Position numbers and translations under genes: made by a program. The notes under the pieces were generated by a model that was not told the origin of the DNA, made no database searches, and was given only the letters and a program-made list of their open reading frames with translations. This document shows, piece by piece, positions 705 through 19,630 of a DNA stretch of 64,000 nucleotides; the first letter of the stretch is position 1; each line of letters starts with the position of its first letter. The DNA lies in assembly GCF_005405585.1 (NCBI RefSeq), contig NZ_BJEQ01000012.1, positions 62,001 through 126,000 on the forward strand, read 5' to 3'. The DNA comes from Agarivorans sp. Toyoura001. Its GTDB lineage: Bacteria; Pseudomonadota; Gammaproteobacteria; Enterobacterales; Celerinatantimonadaceae.

Positions 705-1697
705 ATGAAAAAACTGACCACACTATTGTGCGCAGTCGCATTAGCAGTTTCCGCCCCCGTTTTTGCCAAAACCGTTAAAATTGGTATGGCCATCGATGAC
801 CTTCGCCTTGAACGCTGGCAAAAAGATAGAGACTTTTTTGTCGAAAAAGCCGAATCGCTCGGTGCCAAAGTATTTGTACAATCTTCCAATAGCAATGAAA
901 CCGCCCAGATTTCACAGATTGAAAACATGATCTCTCGTGGTGTAGACGTACTAGTGATTATTCCTTACAACGGCAAAGTATTGTCTAACGTGATTGCTGA
1001 AGCCAAATCTGAGGGTATTCAAGTACTTGCCTACGACCGTTTAATTAACAATGCTGATATCGACTTCTACCTATCATTTGATAACGAGAAAGTGGGTGAG
1101 CTACAAGCCGAAGCGCTGATTAAGCATAAAGCTGACGGTAACTTTTTCTTGATGGGCGGCTCACCGGTTGACAACAACGCCAAACTTTTCCGCCAAGGTC
1201 AAATGAACGTACTGCAGCCGCTTATCGACAAAGGCGACATCAAAGTAGTGGGCGATCAATGGGTTGATGGCTGGTTAGCTGAAAACGCACTAAAAATTAT
1301 GGAAAACGCCCTAACCGCTAACGACAACAACATTGATGTAGTGGTTGCCTCTAATGACTCTACCGCTGGCGGTGCAATTCAAGCATTAGACGCACAAGGT
1401 CTAGCAGGTAAAGTATATATATCGGGTCAGGATGCTGATTTGGCTGCGAGCCGCCGCGTAGTAGCGGGTACTCAAACCATGACGATCTACAAGCCAATTA
1501 AACTACTGGCAACTACCGCCGCTGAACTTGCTGTACAAATGGGTAACGGCCAAATGCCAGAAGCTAACTCAAGCTTAAACAATGGCACTAAAGACGTTCC
1601 TTCATTCTTACTTACACCGATTCCAGTGGATAAATCTAACATCGACCAAACGGTAATTGCCGACGGTTTCCACACTAAAGCCGACGTTTACCAATAA
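705..1697 (+). CDS. xylF: D-xylose ABC transporter, periplasmic binding protein
   Basis: This is a 330-residue periplasmic protein with a clear signal peptide (residues 1-21, cleavage after VFA). It belongs to the sugar-binding periplasmic-binding-protein family of which XylF is a member, and length and pattern match XylF. The segments MAIDDLRLERWQKD near the N-terminus, NDSTAGGAIQAL and ISGQDAD are characteristic. It would bind xylose and deliver it to XylH/XylG encoded just downstream. A strong hairpin separates it from xylG, which usually lets the binding protein be made in excess. Specificity for xylose is inferred from family resemblance and operon order. Confidence 0.9.
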   Translation: MKKLTTLLCAVALAVSAPVFAKTVKIGMAIDDLRLERWQKDRDFFVEKAESLGAKVFVQSSNSNETAQISQIENMISRGVDVLVIIPYNGKVLSNVIAEAKSEGIQVLAYDRLINNADIDFYLSFDNEKVGELQAEALIKHKADGNFFLMGGSPVDNNAKLFRQGQMNVLQPLIDKGDIKVVGDQWVDGWLAENALKIMENALTANDNNIDVVVASNDSTAGGAIQALDAQGLAGKVYISGQDADLAASRRVVAGTQTMTIYKPIKLLATTAAELAVQMGNGQMPEANSSLNNGTKDVPSFLLTPIPVDKSNIDQTVIADGFHTKADVYQ

Positions 1698-1724
1698 AAA
1701 CGCAGCACTATTCACTATGCAGTA

Positions 1725-1756
1725 AAAAAGGGTGGGGCCAACGCCCCGCCCTTTTT
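1725..1756 (+). terminator. xylF-xylG intergenic hairpin (partial terminator)
   Basis: A 14-bp stem (1725-1738 with 1743-1756) with a CAAC loop contains a GC-rich core, one T-G pair and a run of five T at its 3' side. It lies between xylF and xylG and probably terminates part of the transcripts or protects the xylF mRNA 3' end. Confidence 0.8.
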
Positions 1757-1770
1757 ATTAGGAGTTAAAG

Positions 1771-3294
1771 ATGAGCCAAAGTAGCTTATTGATGATGTCT
1801 GACATCGTTAAAAAATTCTCCGGAGTGATTGCGCTAAATGGGGTTAATTTCAATTTAGAACGCGGTGAAGTGGTATCACTTTGCGGCGAGAATGGTTCTG
1901 GTAAATCCACCTTAATGAAGGTACTTACTGGCGTTCACCCCCATGGTAGTTACGAAGGACAAATTATTTACAAAGGCGAGCCACTGGTTTCGCATAGCAT
2001 TAGAGACAGCGAAGCAAAAGGCATCGCAATTATTCACCAAGAACTCACCTTGGTGAAAGAGCTGTCGATACTTGAGAATATTTTCCTGGGTGCTGAAATC
2101 ACTCACTATGGCGTGTTAGATCACAGCGCGATGTTTAAACTAACAGAAGAGCTGTTGAACCGAGTCAAGCTAGATGTGTCACCCGATACCGTGATTCGAG
2201 AGTTAGGTGTTGGCCAGCAGCAATTGGTTGAAATTGCTAAAGCCTTATCTAAAAACGCCGAAGTGTTGGTGTTAGATGAACCCAGCGCACCGTTAACTGA
2301 ATCCGAAACTCGAGTCCTGTTAGATATTGTAAAACAGCTGCGCAGCGAGGGCGTTAGCTGTGTTTACATCTCCCATAAGCTCACCGAAGTGAAAGAAATT
2401 TCCGATCGGATTTGTATTATTCGCGATGGCGAACACATTGGCACTCAAGATGCCGAACGTATGAGTACCGACGACATTATTAGCATGATGGTAGGTCGCG
2501 AGCTTAAACAACTGTTCCCGCGTGAAGAACACCCCATTGGCGAGGTTATTTTGAAAGTGGGGCCGGTAAACGCCCAACTCAGCAAAAGCGCCAACTTAAA
2601 ACAAGTCGATAATGTCAGCTTTAGCTTACACAAAGGCGAAATTTTGGGTGTTGCTGGTTTGGTAGGTTCTGGACGTACCGAGTTAATGCAGTGTTTATTT
2701 GGCTCTTACGAAGGCATCTATAAATGTCCGGTAGAGTTAGATGGTAAACCGATTAAAATTCGCCATAACCGCGATGCGCTAAACCACGGTATTGCCATGG
2801 TGCCGGAAGACCGAAAACGTCACGGTATTATCCCTATTATGGGGGTTGGCCAGAATATCACCTTAGCCGGTTTGAATATGTTTAGCGGCCTAGGTCAAAC
2901 GGTGAATGAATCGGCTGAACATGCCTCTATAAACCAATCAATCCAACGCTTAAAAGTAAAAACAGCTTCACCTGAATTAGCCATTAAAAGCCTCAGCGGC
3001 GGTAACCAACAAAAAGCCATTTTAGCTAAGTTTTTGTTGTTAGAGCCGCGCATTTTGATCCTCGATGAGCCCACTCGCGGCATCGACGTAGGCGCAAAGT
3101 ATGAGATTTATAAGCTGATGTACCAGCTGGTTAAACAAGGGATTAGCATCATTATGGTGTCATCTGAATTGCCTGAAGTACTGGGCATTAGTGACCGCGT
3201 ATTAGTGATGCACGAAGGAAAACTAAAAGGCCTATTAGACAATCAAGACCTGAGCCAAGAAATGGTGATGGACTGTGCATTGGCCGAGGAGTAA
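1771..3294 (+). CDS. xylG: D-xylose ABC transporter, duplicated ATPase
   Basis: This 507-residue cytoplasmic ATPase has two ABC domains, as in all sugar-type CUT2 importers. The first has Walker [10 protein letters not shown] (about residue 40), an atypical signature ELGVGQQQ and Walker [10 protein letters not shown]. The second has a degenerate Walker [10 protein letters not shown] and the canonical LSGGNQQK and [10 protein letters not shown]. It powers XylH. The start follows AGGAG with normal spacing and the stop lies four bases before xylH. Confidence 0.93.
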
Positions 3295-3298
3295 GCAA

Positions 3299-4477
3299 AT
3301 GTCGAGTCAAGAAACTACCATCACCAGTACCGAAGCTAAGGGAAGCCTGATGAGCAACTTAAAGAAAATGAAGTTACAAGTATTGGTGATGTTTGGCGCT
3401 ATTGCGGTAATCATGTTGTTCTTTTACTTCGCTACAGAGGGCAGCTATTTAACCCCACGTAACATTTCAAACTTACTACGCCAAACCGCCATTACCGGCA
3501 TATTGGCAATTGGCATGGTGTTTGTCATTATCTCCGCCGAAATCGATTTGTCGGTGGGTTCAATGATGGGATTATTGGGCGGCGCAGCAGCCATTATGGA
3601 TGTGTGGTGGGAATTACCGCTACCTTTAACCATTATTCTCACCTTAGGTGCAGGCTTTTTGCTAGGCCTTTGGAATGGTTGGTGGGTAGCCTACCGCAAA
3701 GTTCCTTCATTCATTGTGACGCTAGCAGGCTTGCTCGCCTTTAGGGGAATACTGATTGGAATTACCGGCGGCAGCACCGTTGCGCCAACCACCGCCGACA
3801 TGGGCATTATTGGCCAAAGTTATTTGCCTGATATGTTCTCAATGATTACCACGGTGGGCGCACTCGCGGTATTTTTTGCCTGGCAGGGTAAGCTGCGTAA
3901 AAATCGCACCGAGCACAAACTGACTAACTCACCAGTAAGTGGTGATATCTTTAAGTTTGGCTTAATCGCTATTTTTGCCCTGGGTACAGTGTTATTGCTT
4001 AATGACTATCGCGGCGTACCCACCCCGGTATTGTTATTAGTGGTACTGATGTTTATCGCCGCATTTATGGCTAAGAAGACCGCTTTTGGACGCCGTATTT
4101 ATGCCATTGGTGGTAACTTAGAAGCTAGCCGTTTATCGGGCATTAATGTAGAACGCACCAAGCTAAGCGTATTTGCCATTAACGGTTTGCTAGTGGGTGT
4201 AGCCGGGCTTATTTTGGCCTCGCGCTTAGGTGCTGGTTCACCATCTGCGGGTACGGTTGCAGAGTTAGATGCTATCGCGGCCTGTGTAATTGGCGGTACC
4301 AGTTTAGCGGGCGGTGTGGGTACTGTTTTTGGTGCGGTAATGGGCGCATTTATTATGGCCAGCTTAGACAACGGCATGAGCATGATGGACGTGCCGACCT
4401 ATTGGCAGTCTATTATTAAAGGCAGTATTCTACTGCTTGCTGTATGGATGGACGTTGCCAGTAAAAAACGCGCATAA
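3299..4477 (+). CDS. xylH: D-xylose ABC transporter, permease
   Basis: This 392-residue inner-membrane protein of the BPD_transp_2 (RbsC/XylH) family forms the xylose channel. The ATG at 3299 is chosen over an in-frame upstream codon because GAGGAG precedes it at good spacing and it leaves xylG intact. Conserved segments [12 protein letters not shown] and the C-terminal [20 protein letters not shown] are visible. A roughly 70-residue insertion with a charged stretch ([13 protein letters not shown]) in the middle is typical of XylH compared with the shorter RbsC. It is the last gene of the operon, followed by a terminator. Confidence 0.93.
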
Positions 4478-4788: not shown

Positions 4789-6507
4789 CTAACCAATAAG
4801 ATCCAAATCAAAATAACTATATTGATTTCGACCGCTAGATTTGGCTTTATACATCGCCGCATCTGCATTACGAATCAGCATTTCAGGGTCGGTGCCGTTA
4901 GCTGGGTAAAGACTAATTCCCACGCTGGCATACACCGGTTGAATATGTACACCTAAGCTCACTTCCTGGGCTAAACGGCGTAATACGGTGTCTACCACTT
5001 CAGAGGCTTCGTCTTCGTCGATAGACTCCAACGCTAACATAAACTCGTCGCCGGCAAAGCGGGCGACCGCATCTTCAGCGCGCACCACATCTCGTAATAC
5101 CTTTGCCACTTCTTGTAGCAGATGATCGCCAGCTTCATGACCGAGATTGTCGTTAACTTGTTTGAAGTTGTCTAAATCGATAAACACCACGGCTAGGCCA
5201 CTTTGTTTGCGCTGAGCGCGATTAATCGAGATTTTTAACTGCTCCAAAAACAAACCACGATTGGGCAAGCCCGTTAAGCTATCGTGGCTAGCCATGTGCC
5301 GCAGGTTCACCTCATTGCGCTTTAGCTCTTCAATTTGTTTATTAATTTGCTGCGACATTGCCCCAAAAGTTGTGGCAAGTAACCCTATTTCGTCTTTACG
5401 CTGGCTAGGCAGCAACCTTTTAGCAGGCAAATTCCCCGTGGAAAATGCCTTAACAGCCACCACCATATTACGAATGGGCTGAGACAATACCTTGGCGAAG
5501 AGTAATGAAGTCAGCAAACCCAATAAACTTAGGGCTAAACACACCTTAATCATTGAGCCGGCCAATGAATCGATAATATTGCTCAAGGTAGGCAAAGGGC
5601 TTACCAAAGCTAAAACCGCTAATTTTTGACTAGAAGCAGGACCGTAAAACAAAGGAGTAAACGATACAGCTCGCTCGTACCTAATCGCAGCAGATGGGTC
5701 CAAAACAAAAGTACGCGGCTGAAAATCACTAAACAACGCTTCCATTTGAGGGAAATCACGCTGCATCAAATAACGATGGCCATAGTGAAAACCAAACTGC
5801 TTGTCGGGATTGGGATTAACCAGATAATCGCCCTTCTGGTTCGCTAAATAGATTTCGACTCCAGAAGGTAAATCGGCTTGCAGCAAACTAAAGAGATTTT
5901 CTAAACCTACATTCACTACCACTAAGCCAAGAGCTTTACCGCCACTAAATACCGGCGATGCCACTTTTAAGGTTGGCTGATGCTGACCAAGCTCAACGCC
6001 TTTTTCGTTATGAATATCAACGTCAGACAAATAGCTGTCTCCGTCACCTAAACGAAGGGTGCGAAACACATAAGGGTAGTGGGCTTTTTCTTCTAGCTGT
6101 TCTGTTTCAATGGCAATTAAGCCATCACTTAAGCGATCCACCCTAATCAGCTCTTGTCCAAAATTGTCAGCACCAATAAAACGAAGTTGAAAGTAGGAGT
6201 TATTAAGTTTGAGTTTTTGTTTAAAGATATCGGTTAGTTGCTTCGCCAGCAGCGGTTTGTTTGAAGATTGAAAGTATCCGGCAGTTTGTGGAATTGAAGC
6301 CAGAAATAGTACATCTTTGGCGATCTCGTTAATGCTGTGATTAAACTCACGCGAGAGAATATGGGTAGTCGTAGCAAGTTCACGCTCAGCGCTTTCAGCC
6401 AATAGTTCTCTGCTTTCATGGTAACTAACGGTAGCGGTGACCACCGAAGCCAAAATACCAAACATCGCAAACCATAAACCAAAACGCAGCGAAATTGAGT
6501 TGATCAT
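4789..6507 (-). CDS. membrane diguanylate cyclase (dCache-HAMP-GGDEF)
   Basis: This 572-residue protein would make cyclic di-GMP in response to a periplasmic signal. It has a transmembrane segment at about 8-28, a large periplasmic dCache-type region (about 30-310), a second membrane segment (about 315-337), a HAMP domain and a C-terminal GGDEF domain. The active-site motif is AGDEF, a tolerated variant, and an inhibitory-site RAED lies five residues before it. No EAL domain is present. It overlaps the upstream binding-protein gene by four bases (ATGA), so translation is coupled. This suggests that the binding protein is its ligand receptor, as for NspS and MbaA in Vibrio cholerae, although MbaA also has an EAL domain. 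Confidence 0.9.
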   Translation of the reverse strand: MINSISLRFGLWFAMFGILASVVTATVSYHESRELLAESAERELATTTHILSREFNHSINEIAKDVLFLASIPQTAGYFQSSNKPLLAKQLTDIFKQKLKLNNSYFQLRFIGADNFGQELIRVDRLSDGLIAIETEQLEEKAHYPYVFRTLRLGDGDSYLSDVDIHNEKGVELGQHQPTLKVASPVFSGGKALGLVVVNVGLENLFSLLQADLPSGVEIYLANQKGDYLVNPNPDKQFGFHYGHRYLMQRDFPQMEALFSDFQPRTFVLDPSAAIRYERAVSFTPLFYGPASSQKLAVLALVSPLPTLSNIIDSLAGSMIKVCLALSLLGLLTSLLFAKVLSQPIRNMVVAVKAFSTGNLPAKRLLPSQRKDEIGLLATTFGAMSQQINKQIEELKRNEVNLRHMASHDSLTGLPNRGLFLEQLKISINRAQRKQSGLAVVFIDLDNFKQVNDNLGHEAGDHLLQEVAKVLRDVVRAEDAVARFAGDEFMLALESIDEDEASEVVDTVLRRLAQEVSLGVHIQPVYASVGISLYPANGTDPEMLIRNADAAMYKAKSSGRNQYSYFDLDLIG

Positions 6508-7544
6508 GGTAGCGCCATTGTTTGTAAGGTTTTACCACTTAAAATATTTTCCCAATAATCAGTTCTACGCTGGTTATCCTCTACTTGCTCTAGCCAAATA
6601 ATCTTATCTTCAGCCACACTGCGAGTATCTTGCACAATGGTATTGGCTAAACCTTGGCGCTCGGTAAGCAACTCACTCACCCAAGGCTCTAGGGTAAAAT
6701 TAATCCACTGATGGGCTAAATCTCGGTTTTGTACACCATTCGACAATGCCCAGCAGTCTAACCAAGCTAAAGCGCCCTCTTTGGGAATGGTGTAACCAAT
6801 GTCTGCGCCTGAATCTTGCAGCTTTTTGAGCTGTTGAGCGCCGTAGTTGGCAAACACGAGTGCCACAGATTCTTGGCTAAAGTAATCGAGCGCTTCTTCT
6901 GGTGAGCTATAAAAGGTGAGAGCATTACGACGCAATGCTAATAAACGCTCGGTACTAGACGTAAACTCTTGATTGGTTTGCTGAAAAGGGTTGCTAACAC
7001 CGGCAACCAGACCTGCTAAGGAATAGTTATGTGCGCTGCCATTATAAGCTAACACCTTTCCTTGATATTGCGGATCCCATAATACCTGCCAAGACTCTGG
7101 CGGTGTATCGAAGTAATTTCGATTATAAATCAAGCCCATTTCAGAATAGGTATAAGGAATGGCATAAACTTTATCACCACGTGTTGCTCCGGGGATGTCA
7201 CTTAAACGACTAAAGCGAGGGAGTTGCTTGGTGACGTTATCAATACTGCTTGGCTCGATAGCCACAGCCAAATTAGCATCAATATAACGTTGTAGTTCGG
7301 CGGTATTTACCGCAAAAACGTCGTAATCAGCACCTTGTTTATTGCCCATTCTCAGCCACATTTCATCATCATTGGTGATGTAACTCACCTTAACTTTCAC
7401 TTTGTGGCGTTTTTCAAAGGCAGCAACCATGTCTGCGTCGGCATAACCCGGCCATGCCAGTACTCGCAAATCAACTTGTTCTGCCGCAATCGGTAGGCTA
7501 ATTAAACTGAACCATAAACCCAAGGTAGATAAAACTCGCAACAT
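6504..7544 (-). CDS. orphan PotD/NspS-type polyamine-binding protein
   Basis: This 346-residue periplasmic protein has a signal peptide (residues 1-21, cleavage after IAA) and belongs to the spermidine/putrescine-binding family. VLAWPGYADADMVAAFEK near the N-terminus, AIPYTYSEMGLIYN and the C-terminal ALSNGVQN region are typical. No permease or ATPase gene is nearby. Instead the stop codon overlaps the start of a diguanylate cyclase. This arrangement matches the NspS-MbaA norspermidine sensor of Vibrio cholerae, so a sensing rather than transport role is likely. The ligand cannot be told from the sequence. Confidence 0.85.
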   Translation of the reverse strand: MLRVLSTLGLWFSLISLPIAAEQVDLRVLAWPGYADADMVAAFEKRHKVKVKVSYITNDDEMWLRMGNKQGADYDVFAVNTAELQRYIDANLAVAIEPSSIDNVTKQLPRFSRLSDIPGATRGDKVYAIPYTYSEMGLIYNRNYFDTPPESWQVLWDPQYQGKVLAYNGSAHNYSLAGLVAGVSNPFQQTNQEFTSSTERLLALRRNALTFYSSPEEALDYFSQESVALVFANYGAQQLKKLQDSGADIGYTIPKEGALAWLDCWALSNGVQNRDLAHQWINFTLEPWVSELLTERQGLANTIVQDTRSVAEDKIIWLEQVEDNQRRTDYWENILSGKTLQTMALP

Positions 7545-16632: not shown

Positions 16633-18459
16633 CTATACGTCGAGATCAAGTACCGCTCTATTGCGCCCTTGGTGCTTGGCTTTATACAAACATGTATCGG
16701 CCATTTCCAGTAAGTTGGTTGGGTCCAGCACATCATCTGGCTCCACCAATATACCGCCAAGGCTAATGGTTAATACTTCAGAAATCTGCGAGCCTTGGTG
16801 CTCAATATTTTGCGCCGATACCTCTTGTACTATCCGCTCTGCCATTTGCGGCAAATCTTGCTGATTAACATCGGAGAGCAATATCGCAAACTCTTCCCCA
16901 CCGACTCGCGCCACACAATCTTCACTGCGTTTAACTACGGAAGATAGCGCTTTAGCTACCAGCTTTAAGGCCTCATCACCTTGCAGGTGACCATAGCGGT
17001 CGTTATAGGCTTTAAAGTAATCAATATCGGCCATCATTACTGCAATTTGCGAGCGATGACGCCTAGCACTAGCAATAGCGCGGTTTAATTCCCGTTTAAA
17101 CGGTCGGCGATTCACCAAGCCTGTGAGTTCGTCGGTTTCTGCTAATACTTGCAAGCGCTCATTCACTTGCAGTAACTCATTTTGTAGTCGTGCCATGGCT
17201 AAGGCATTTTTCTCTTGAATTAACAAACCGCTAATTGCCGCGGCAAACTGCCCAAGTAGCGCAATTTGGTGCTCGTCCCACAGCGCGCAGTAGCTCAAAC
17301 TGACACAATTAAGCAGGCCAAAGGCTTTGTTGCCATCACTTAACGGAAAACCGGCAAACGACTTAATACCATGCTGTTTAAGCAGCTTATATTCTTCTTT
17401 AGCTTGGCGCTTAATCTTCTCTACATCGTTCACAACAATCGGCGCAACATTCACTAAACGCCGCTTAAGTTCACTTAATTGGCTTAGATCTATCGGCTCT
17501 ATAGGCGCTAAATGACCGGGCACACTCCATACGTCTCGGTAAATAGCCTGCTGGCGTTCAAACTCTAATATCACCACTCGCTCCACTGAGAACAAACTGC
17601 CAATCGCCGACGTTGCGCGCTGCAGTAGAGCTTTAGAATTTCTTGGGGTTTGATTAAGAAATGATAGCGATATCTCAGACAGCAACTGGTTGGCTTCGGT
17701 TTGCCAATTTAACAGTGCGGTACGTTGTTCTACAGTTTCTTCTAGTATCTGACGGTGCTGATGAAGCTGTTGCTCGGCTTCTAGCCGGGCATCTAAACCA
17801 CGTTGCAAACGTTGCTGCAATTGCTGCATTGAGCTGGCCACTAAACCAATCTCATCATTACGCTGAATCAGCTTGCTAGGCAACTGTACTATTTGTTGCT
17901 CTTCGGTAAATATTTGATCGGCTGCCTCAGCCAAGCGGCGTAAGTCGCCAGTCACTAAGCGCCCAAGCAAAAGCAATATAATCAGGCTCATCAAAAAGGT
18001 TTTTAAGCCGTTAGTTAACAGTATCACCAAGGCTTGTTCGGCGATGTCTTGCTTTATTAACGACAAGTCTAAACCAACGGTTAATTGGCCAATATCTCGT
18101 TCACGGTAACTAAGCATATAAACGTAGAATTTTTGGTTTAAATTGGCATCTCCAATACCCAAACTAATGCCATCGCCAGAGCTAAGGTTAACCGTGGCAA
18201 CATATTGCTGCTGTACAAACCCCTGCAGTAGCTCATCTAATAGCTGATAGTCTACATCCCAAATAGCCCGTTCTATGGCCGCCATATTGGCTTGATTGTA
18301 TTCATCAACCCAGCGCTCTGCATTTTTCACCGCACCAGAAAAATTGAATGCAAGTTGCACTGCCACCGAGACCAGCGCAAATAGGGTGCTGGCACCCACA
18401 ATTAAAATGAGTAATCTTTTGGCAATGGGAGTGTGTAGCTTGAAAGAACCTTTCACCAT
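16633..18459 (-). CDS. membrane diguanylate cyclase (periplasmic sensor-GAF-GGDEF)
   Basis: The chosen start is ATG 18459, because GAGGTG lies seven bases before it; an in-frame TTG at 18477 lacks this. The 608-residue product has membrane segments at about 14-36 and 150-172 around a short periplasmic domain. A HAMP-like/coiled-coil linker, a GAF domain (about 265-410) and a C-terminal GGDEF domain follow. The active site reads GGEEF and an RSED inhibitory site lies five residues earlier, so it should make cyclic di-GMP and be product-inhibited. It begins seven bases after the stop of a periplasmic binding-protein gene, its probable sensory partner. Confidence 0.9.
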   Translation of the reverse strand: MVKGSFKLHTPIAKRLLILIVGASTLFALVSVAVQLAFNFSGAVKNAERWVDEYNQANMAAIERAIWDVDYQLLDELLQGFVQQQYVATVNLSSGDGISLGIGDANLNQKFYVYMLSYRERDIGQLTVGLDLSLIKQDIAEQALVILLTNGLKTFLMSLIILLLLGRLVTGDLRRLAEAADQIFTEEQQIVQLPSKLIQRNDEIGLVASSMQQLQQRLQRGLDARLEAEQQLHQHRQILEETVEQRTALLNWQTEANQLLSEISLSFLNQTPRNSKALLQRATSAIGSLFSVERVVILEFERQQAIYRDVWSVPGHLAPIEPIDLSQLSELKRRLVNVAPIVVNDVEKIKRQAKEEYKLLKQHGIKSFAGFPLSDGNKAFGLLNCVSLSYCALWDEHQIALLGQFAAAISGLLIQEKNALAMARLQNELLQVNERLQVLAETDELTGLVNRRPFKRELNRAIASARRHRSQIAVMMADIDYFKAYNDRYGHLQGDEALKLVAKALSSVVKRSEDCVARVGGEEFAILLSDVNQQDLPQMAERIVQEVSAQNIEHQGSQISEVLTISLGGILVEPDDVLDPTNLLEMADTCLYKAKHQGRNRAVLDLDV

Positions 18460-18466
18460 AGTCACC

Positions 18467-19498
18467 TCATTGCACAACGGGGAAATTAAAAGACTTGTCC
18501 CGCTCTAGCAACAAGGTATCAAAGGAGATATCGCTCCAGTTTTTGTCTTTCAATTGCTGGTACTCCTGGGTTCCCGGAACCAGCAGTTGAAACATATTGG
18601 AATTAACGGTAGCTGGAATAGGTTTGCCCAACTGATGTAAATAGATAAGATTTAAAGCTAAACCTGCAGCACTAAAATGGCCACCGCCTAAGGCACTTAT
18701 CTCGCCAGTTTCACGCAGCTCTAAGGCTTTTGCTGAGGTATTCACGGTGCCAACAAATATATCTTTTCCTGCTTGTTTACCCGCTTCTTTAATGGCTTTC
18801 AGGCTGCCAAATGCCATATGGTCGTTGGCCGCCCACAAAAAGCGTAGCTGCGGATAACGCTGCAATAACACTTTGGTTTGGTAGTAGCTACGTTGTTCGT
18901 CCCATTGCCCATAAACAATTTGGCGCATATTGATCGATGTTTGCTGCAGAAAAAACGCCTCTGCCCCCGCTTCTCTGGCCACGGAGGCGGGAGTGGCCTT
19001 GTCACCGGAAATAATCACTGCATCACCCCCGCCTCCCTCCGCGGCAGCATGCATGGCTTGAGCGGTCGCATAGCCAATCGCGTAGTTGTTAGGGACTAGG
19101 CTACTTAATAAGTATTTTTGCCAATGTGGATTTAGCTTGCGCAAGGCCAGCTGCTCTTCATCCAAATCGTTTAATATCACGACCACATAAACCGCATGCC
19201 CTTCTAACAAACTAAGCATACGCGGCAAGGCTTGGCGCTCGTTTACTAACATTAAATAGTCGGGTAATTGCTGGTTCTCAATCATCCATTCAATATACTT
19301 GAGCTTAGAGTAGTGATTACGTTCACTATGAAAAGTTTGTAAATCTAGGTCCAGCTGTTTAGCAGCAACGGCTGCAAAGGTGTCTACGTCCTGCCAAAAA
19401 CTTTCATCTGCTTTACCAGGGTTCAAAAACACCACAGAACCTTGCCCCCATACCAACGGGCAAAACACTAACAATAAAATAACCACGTCTCTTTTCAA
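18467..19498 (-). CDS. orphan sugar/AI-2-type periplasmic binding protein
   Basis: This 343-residue protein has a signal peptide (residues 1-18, cleavage after VWG) and the fold of RbsB/LuxP-like receptors: VVFLNPGKADESFWQDV at the N-terminus, AVIISGDKATPASVAREAGAEAF, LRFLWAANDHMAFGSLKA and FVGTVNT. No ABC permease or ATPase is nearby. The next gene, seven bases downstream, is a diguanylate cyclase, so it probably acts as a ligand receptor for signalling, as LuxP does for LuxQ. The start is TTG with no strong ribosome site; no ATG is available upstream before a stop. The ligand is unknown. Confidence 0.82.
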   Translation of the reverse strand: MKRDVVILLLVFCPLVWGQGSVVFLNPGKADESFWQDVDTFAAVAAKQLDLDLQTFHSERNHYSKLKYIEWMIENQQLPDYLMLVNERQALPRMLSLLEGHAVYVVVILNDLDEEQLALRKLNPHWQKYLLSSLVPNNYAIGYATAQAMHAAAEGGGGDAVIISGDKATPASVAREAGAEAFFLQQTSINMRQIVYGQWDEQRSYYQTKVLLQRYPQLRFLWAANDHMAFGSLKAIKEAGKQAGKDIFVGTVNTSAKALELRETGEISALGGGHFSAAGLALNLIYLHQLGKPIPATVNSNMFQLLVPGTQEYQQLKDKNWSDISFDTLLLERDKSFNFPVVQ

Positions 19499-19608: not shown

Positions 19609-19630
19609 AAAAGCGCCAAGTGGCGCTTTT
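19609..19630 (-). terminator. terminator of the Bcr/CflA pump gene
   Basis: A perfect 10-bp stem (19609-19618 with 19621-19630), AAAAGCGCCA / TGGCGCTTTT, lies 29 bases beyond the pump gene stop. It has A and T runs on both sides and could work in both directions. Confidence 0.8.

Follow-up and report, generated by a model that had tools for sequence, protein, structure and literature searches.

A periplasmic solute-binding protein gene conserved beside that of a CHASE5-like diguanylate cyclase: a probable two-protein sensor

The window that we analysed, a 64,000-nucleotide stretch of the genome of Agarivorans sp. Toyoura001, carries on its minus strand a gene for a predicted periplasmic solute-binding protein (SBP; 18467..19498, 343 amino acids, TTG start) and, directly behind it, a gene for a membrane diguanylate cyclase (16633..18459, 608 amino acids, ATG start). 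We consider it likely that this SBP is a detachable ligand-sensing subunit of the cyclase, such that two proteins make up one sensor. As far as comparison of sequences can carry the argument, there is good support for receptor and cyclase being functionally coupled: gene order is conserved, the two genes are co-inherited, outputs have been swapped and a natural fusion exists. The combination of this SBP family with this receptor type is what appears to be new here; the control of c-di-GMP by an SBP is a design already known from Vibrio.

The spacer between the SBP stop codon and the cyclase ATG at 18459 is exactly 7 nt. This agrees with the initial annotation, which had described an SBP seven bases ahead of a cyclase; both reading frames were found where it had placed them. 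A mechanical reading-frame call starts the cyclase at TTG 18477, and ATG 18459 is the start that fits its relatives. The SBP has a hydrophobic N terminus that we read as a signal peptide (MKRDVVILLLVFCPLVWGQ; 19442..19498, minus strand), its start being aligned in relatives, and the protein is therefore predicted to be secreted. No ABC transporter genes adjoin the pair in the window. An MFS gene lies upstream on the same strand, and a terminator-like hairpin (19609..19630, minus strand; a consensus match only) parts it from the SBP gene, which suggests that the pair is a transcription unit of its own.

The SBP matches Pfam Peripla_BP_4 at 1.5e-22 (80.8 bits; cut-off 35.1), and its AlphaFold model (pLDDT 89) aligns with SBPs of the CUT2 type at Z 28-38. 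By fold it is a Peripla_BP_4 member of the type I / CUT2 kind, which does not make it a proven sugar binder. The closest solved structure is 3h75 from Pseudomonas fluorescens (Z 38.4, 31-32% identity), titled 'periplasmic sugar-binding protein', followed by binders of ribose, allose, galactofuranose and arabinose at Z of about 29-32. 3h75 keeps most of the positions that are invariant in the SBP family, and in the family tree it sits next to unpaired members, with weak support for that position; in the open literature, which our search covered in part, we did not find a paper on it. LuxP is not among the matches listed, so the label 'LuxP-like' in the initial annotation could not be upheld. 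That annotation had also suggested a sugar as ligand, and here the evidence divides: the nearest folds are those of sugar binders, but the usual sugar contacts are replaced. The contact residues of RbsB, which we take to be D89, R90, D215 and Q235, correspond to L109, N110, N253 and G272 in a profile alignment to YtfQ; by the same alignment R175 and N225 are kept, and the usual Asp/Asp/Gln set is not. The ligand is likely to be a small polar solute.

The cyclase is built, in order, of a transmembrane helix, a CHASE5-like domain, HAMP, GAF and GGDEF (all on the minus strand). Its short CHASE5-like periplasmic domain (18049..18342) lies between two transmembrane helices, which enclose helices and beta strands in the predicted structure; the Pfam CHASE5 match (1.9e-5) scores 25.0 bits, just below the cut-off of 27, a threshold exceeded by the relatives L048, L102 and L106. 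We propose this domain as the docking site of the SBP. A weakly matching HAMP domain (17803..17970) and a GAF domain (17230..17631; Pfam 1.7e-11), the latter optional in the family, lead to the GGDEF domain (16657..17142; Pfam 2.1e-50). The GGEEF active-site motif (16888..16902) is invariant in the family, as are the catalytic residues, all of which are present in the window cyclase. Five residues upstream of GGEEF is an RSED inhibitory site (I-site, RxxD; 16918..16929), which is kept in congeners and in L054/L055 and is absent from Shewanella-type sequences. Pfam and motif reading agree with the initial annotation of a cyclase with a short periplasmic domain, GAF, GGEEF and RSED, and the GGDEF profile, the GG[DE]EF motif and the metal and substrate residues place the protein among predicted diguanylate cyclases. 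A fold search with the whole cyclase returned GGDEF and GAF cyclases only and is uninformative on the periplasmic domain; likewise, an NCBIfam match to DgcN spans GGDEF only.

The initial annotation had staked its reading on the two genes being neighbours in related genomes as well, and adjacency does hold, across genera and in two orders. A cyclase gene directly follows the SBP gene in seven of seven congeneric genomes (the window genome and six others), frameshifted in one of them (G164). A scan of GTDB genomes turned up the same order and strand in four further genera: Shewanella (S. decolorationis, S. xiamenensis, S. oncorhynchi, S. indica, ANA-3 and others), Vibrio (V. mediterranei, V. 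maritimus, V. hangzhouensis, V. thalassae, V. variabilis and V. barjaei), Salinivibrio and Mangrovitalea. Homologues of the SBP occur in 46 of the 296 genomes of the order that we searched; in a second gammaproteobacterial order the family is present in 19 of 349 genomes, and in 16 of the 19 the next gene after that of the SBP encodes GGDEF. A phylum-wide draw added five further pairs, of which three (from one genus), and possibly all five, lie outside the class. At three loci (L036, L083 and L095) apparent frameshifts, possibly sequencing errors, split the cyclase gene beside an intact SBP gene.

Distinct paired loci number over 50, in a sample that is partly biased. Before the phylum-wide draw, 71 distinct loci had an SBP scoring at least 250 bits: GGDEF is encoded next door in 50, an input module with a degenerate GGDEF in a further three, and neither in 18, whereas a separate GGDEF gene is next door in none of the 25 loci whose SBP scores below 250 bits; the sample behind these counts is not random, the patterns for the contig scan having come mostly from paired members and the bit-score profile containing many of them. 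That contig scan found 36 loci with a nine-row alignment and no matches with a single protein sequence. The input module of the cyclase starts mostly 8-62 nt past the SBP stop. A 4.65 Mb genome has about 50 GGDEF matches, or some 1% per neighbouring gene at usual gene density; against this expectation, GGDEF behind the SBP in every congener searched and in many other genera puts the adjacency beyond chance. The signature of SBP-controlled c-di-GMP receptors, a conserved SBP gene beside the gene of a membrane c-di-GMP enzyme, is seen here.

The two genes also share a history. When 97 SBPs of the family and an outgroup are placed on a tree, 9 changes suffice to explain the paired state, compared with 33 in shuffles; the pairing seems ancient and the cyclase to have been lost several times, bearing in mind that the change count alone cannot separate gain from loss. 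For 54 pairs, distances in the SBP tree and in the tree of the cyclase N-terminal module correlate at 0.86 (the best of 999 permutations reached 0.14), and the two trees have 32 of 38 supported splits in common, with 3 conflicts. As judged from these trees, such congruence shows that partners have not been repeatedly exchanged; it is no proof of contact, and common descent of the genomes contributes to it.

Another line of evidence comes from the reciprocal search, in which the cyclase input module was compared with the 296 genomes. All 15 of the best input-module proteins (at least 263 bits) adjoin an SBP. Two proteins from the genus with degenerate GGDEF (L157 and L158, at 174 and 242 bits) have the module without an intact SBP; at L157 we read an SBP remnant that consists of a signal peptide and a few residues. 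A large second tier, at 155 bits and below, comprises kinases and cyclases whose modules are similar, and none of the 18 that we examined adjoins an SBP of this family. The link to an SBP is thus limited to one branch of the module and does not extend to CHASE5-like sensors generally.

Behind the SBP, the output varies. The transmembrane sensors that follow family SBPs have either GGDEF with GAF or GGDEF alone, and relatives of the SBP precede a GGDEF-EAL output (L248) and two hybrid histidine kinases: at L253, which lacks a Pfam CHASE5 call, and at L251, which has one and where another gene intervenes. In one genus (L048-L050) the SBP is kept with a cyclase whose GGDEF catalytic motif is lost; an 'EAL' tag on the preceding gene at these loci was rejected as a loose-motif artefact, the sequence reading as Mfd. 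A Vibrio relative encodes a single-chain fusion of the order Peripla_BP_4 - SBP_bac_3 - TM - GGDEF, which includes a distant SBP of the family (L113, 5229-7694), and at L112 the fusion partner of a similar SBP is a hybrid kinase. Output swaps and fusions are what would be expected if the SBP feeds a receptor. The L113 fusion also supplies one cyclase with two different SBP folds.

On the other side are SBPs with no such neighbour. In a Pseudomonas-like genus (L238, L239 and L241-L246), eight of eight positive genomes have a 3h75-like SBP with no GGDEF gene nearby; together with the 18 unpaired loci of the 71, this suggests that the SBP may act without a cyclase neighbour, or that its partner is encoded elsewhere. 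The order of G398, used in seeking a partner for 3h75, comprised three genomes only. In one genome a chemoreceptor gene is divergent from the SBP gene (L206, 5959-7869) and weakly matches the cyclase input module.

We hypothesize that the SBP, once exported to the periplasm, would close around a small solute and dock on the short CHASE5-like domain of a cyclase dimer. Docking, or a change in docking upon ligand binding, would then reach the GGDEF domains by way of the transmembrane helices, HAMP, a coiled coil and GAF, altering their synthesis of c-di-GMP, with the I-site providing product feedback. The phenotype governed by this output could be attachment or motility. A broader proposal, which we advance tentatively and rate somewhat short of even, is that a distinct SBP subfamily without a transport role serves as an exchangeable ligand-sensing subunit of CHASE5-type receptors, in which the output (cyclase, cyclase-phosphodiesterase or hybrid kinase) swaps and the contact is kept; CHASE5, at least in this branch, would then be a protein-docking domain and not a direct ligand binder. 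We know of no description of CHASE5 ligands. The inputs of most c-di-GMP enzymes are unknown, and the pair suggests a possible role for a CHASE5-type domain; furthermore, with a soluble receptor in a conserved two-gene unit of Shewanella, Vibrio and other genera, the ligand could be found by an SBP screen and the output read.

Could the SBP instead be an orphan transport protein for a sugar importer encoded elsewhere, next to a cyclase that senses independently through CHASE5 or GAF? We regard this as improbable. Many relatives do carry the SBP alone, its nearest fold relatives are SBPs of ABC importers, and other ribose-type importers are encoded elsewhere in the window genome; yet ABC genes are absent beside the window pair and the listed paired loci (the exception, at L054/L055, is an ABC gene that is divergent and of another type), the pair is co-inherited in at least two orders, the sugar-contact positions are not kept, and nature has fused SBP and GGDEF. 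An AI-2 receptor, with the pair as a LuxPQ-like system of cyclase output, is very improbable, and the furanosyl signal offered as a ligand in the initial annotation is without specific support, LuxP being missing from the matches listed. The genome does encode LuxS, the type I fold would suit, and the silence of the LuxQ periplasmic family is weak evidence because the control of that search was silent too. Nevertheless, the sequence matches at E 0.01 include no LuxP chain, nor do the 60 best hits of the profile search or the top 50 structures, and the partner is CHASE5-like, not of the LuxQ-periplasm type.

The direction of control within the docking model is a separate matter. We lean towards a ligand-loaded SBP that raises cyclase activity over one that lowers it. 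A sub-case of opposite sign is modelled on YfiR-YfiN, in which a periplasmic partner is combined with a HAMP-GGDEF cyclase that has a short periplasmic domain: free SBP would repress the cyclase and ligand would release it. The resemblance to YfiN extends to the short periplasmic domain and the HAMP-GGDEF layout (the DgcN match, as noted, is confined to GGDEF), and the genus in which two species lost the SBP retains a catalytically degenerate cyclase. However, YfiR is not an SBP and its system has no GAF; the partner here is a two-lobed ligand-binding SBP, and what sets activity in known SBP systems is the ligand-bound SBP in complex with the enzyme. On balance, repression by the free SBP seems to us unlikely, if a more serious contender than either of the preceding alternatives.

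Signalling by an SBP through a membrane protein has precedents, and for two that act on c-di-GMP, NspS-MbaA and ScrB-ScrC, the mechanism has been tested. In LuxP-LuxQ, TorT-TorS and ChvE-VirA, a type I SBP signals through a membrane sensor with a histidine kinase output. Their partner domains are of other types than CHASE5-like, and the window SBP is not close to LuxP in sequence. NspS of Vibrio cholerae is a free-standing periplasmic SBP that governs the membrane c-di-GMP enzyme MbaA (PMC8967002); NspS is a polyamine (PotD-like) SBP and MbaA combines GGDEF with EAL, whereas the window pair has a Peripla_BP_4 SBP, a CHASE5-like domain, GAF, and GGDEF without EAL. We rejected the pair as a member of that system on account of its unrelated type I SBP and lack of EAL. 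In ScrABC of Vibrio parahaemolyticus, the SBP ScrB docks on the membrane enzyme ScrC (PMC11315295); that operon includes a signal synthase gene, scrA, and its ScrC is bifunctional, while the window pair has no synthase gene. Activation of receptors by SBPs, diguanylate cyclases included, has been called a general, widespread mechanism (PMC9602780), and according to a 2022 census of c-di-GMP sensing, SBP_bac_3 domains alone of the periplasmic-binding clan have been studied in these networks (PMC8846402). In the part of the open literature that we covered, we found neither a Peripla_BP_4 SBP family with a CHASE5-like receptor type nor anything relevant on CHASE5 with cyclases.

The design recurs in the window genome. 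A second operon in the window (4789..7544, minus strand, 4-nt overlap) joins an SBP_bac_8 gene to a dCache/HAMP/GGDEF gene, and, as the initial annotation had it, the two pairs are unrelated outside GGDEF: the cyclases align in GGDEF and a scrap of HAMP (40% over 189 amino acids), and the SBPs do not align. At least a third SBP-GGDEF operon, besides these two, lies on contig C18: 39500-50000 (L119, 3343-6632), where an SBP_bac_8 gene overlaps by 4 nt a gene for a 706-residue GGDEF protein. The initial annotation spoke of a general and little-described design; it recurs, as this third operon shows, but it had already been described in NspS-MbaA and ScrB-ScrC and called widespread, as cited above. 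Single-chain versions of an SBP with a c-di-GMP enzyme occur as well: one on contig C32: 1-9500 (L122, 1372-4149) is a GGDEF-EAL protein with a weak N-terminal match to ABC_sub_bind, a part that is presumably periplasmic, and another is L123. Adjoining the pair at 4789-7544 is a complete xylose ABC operon (705-4477; XylF equivalog match, ATPase and permease).
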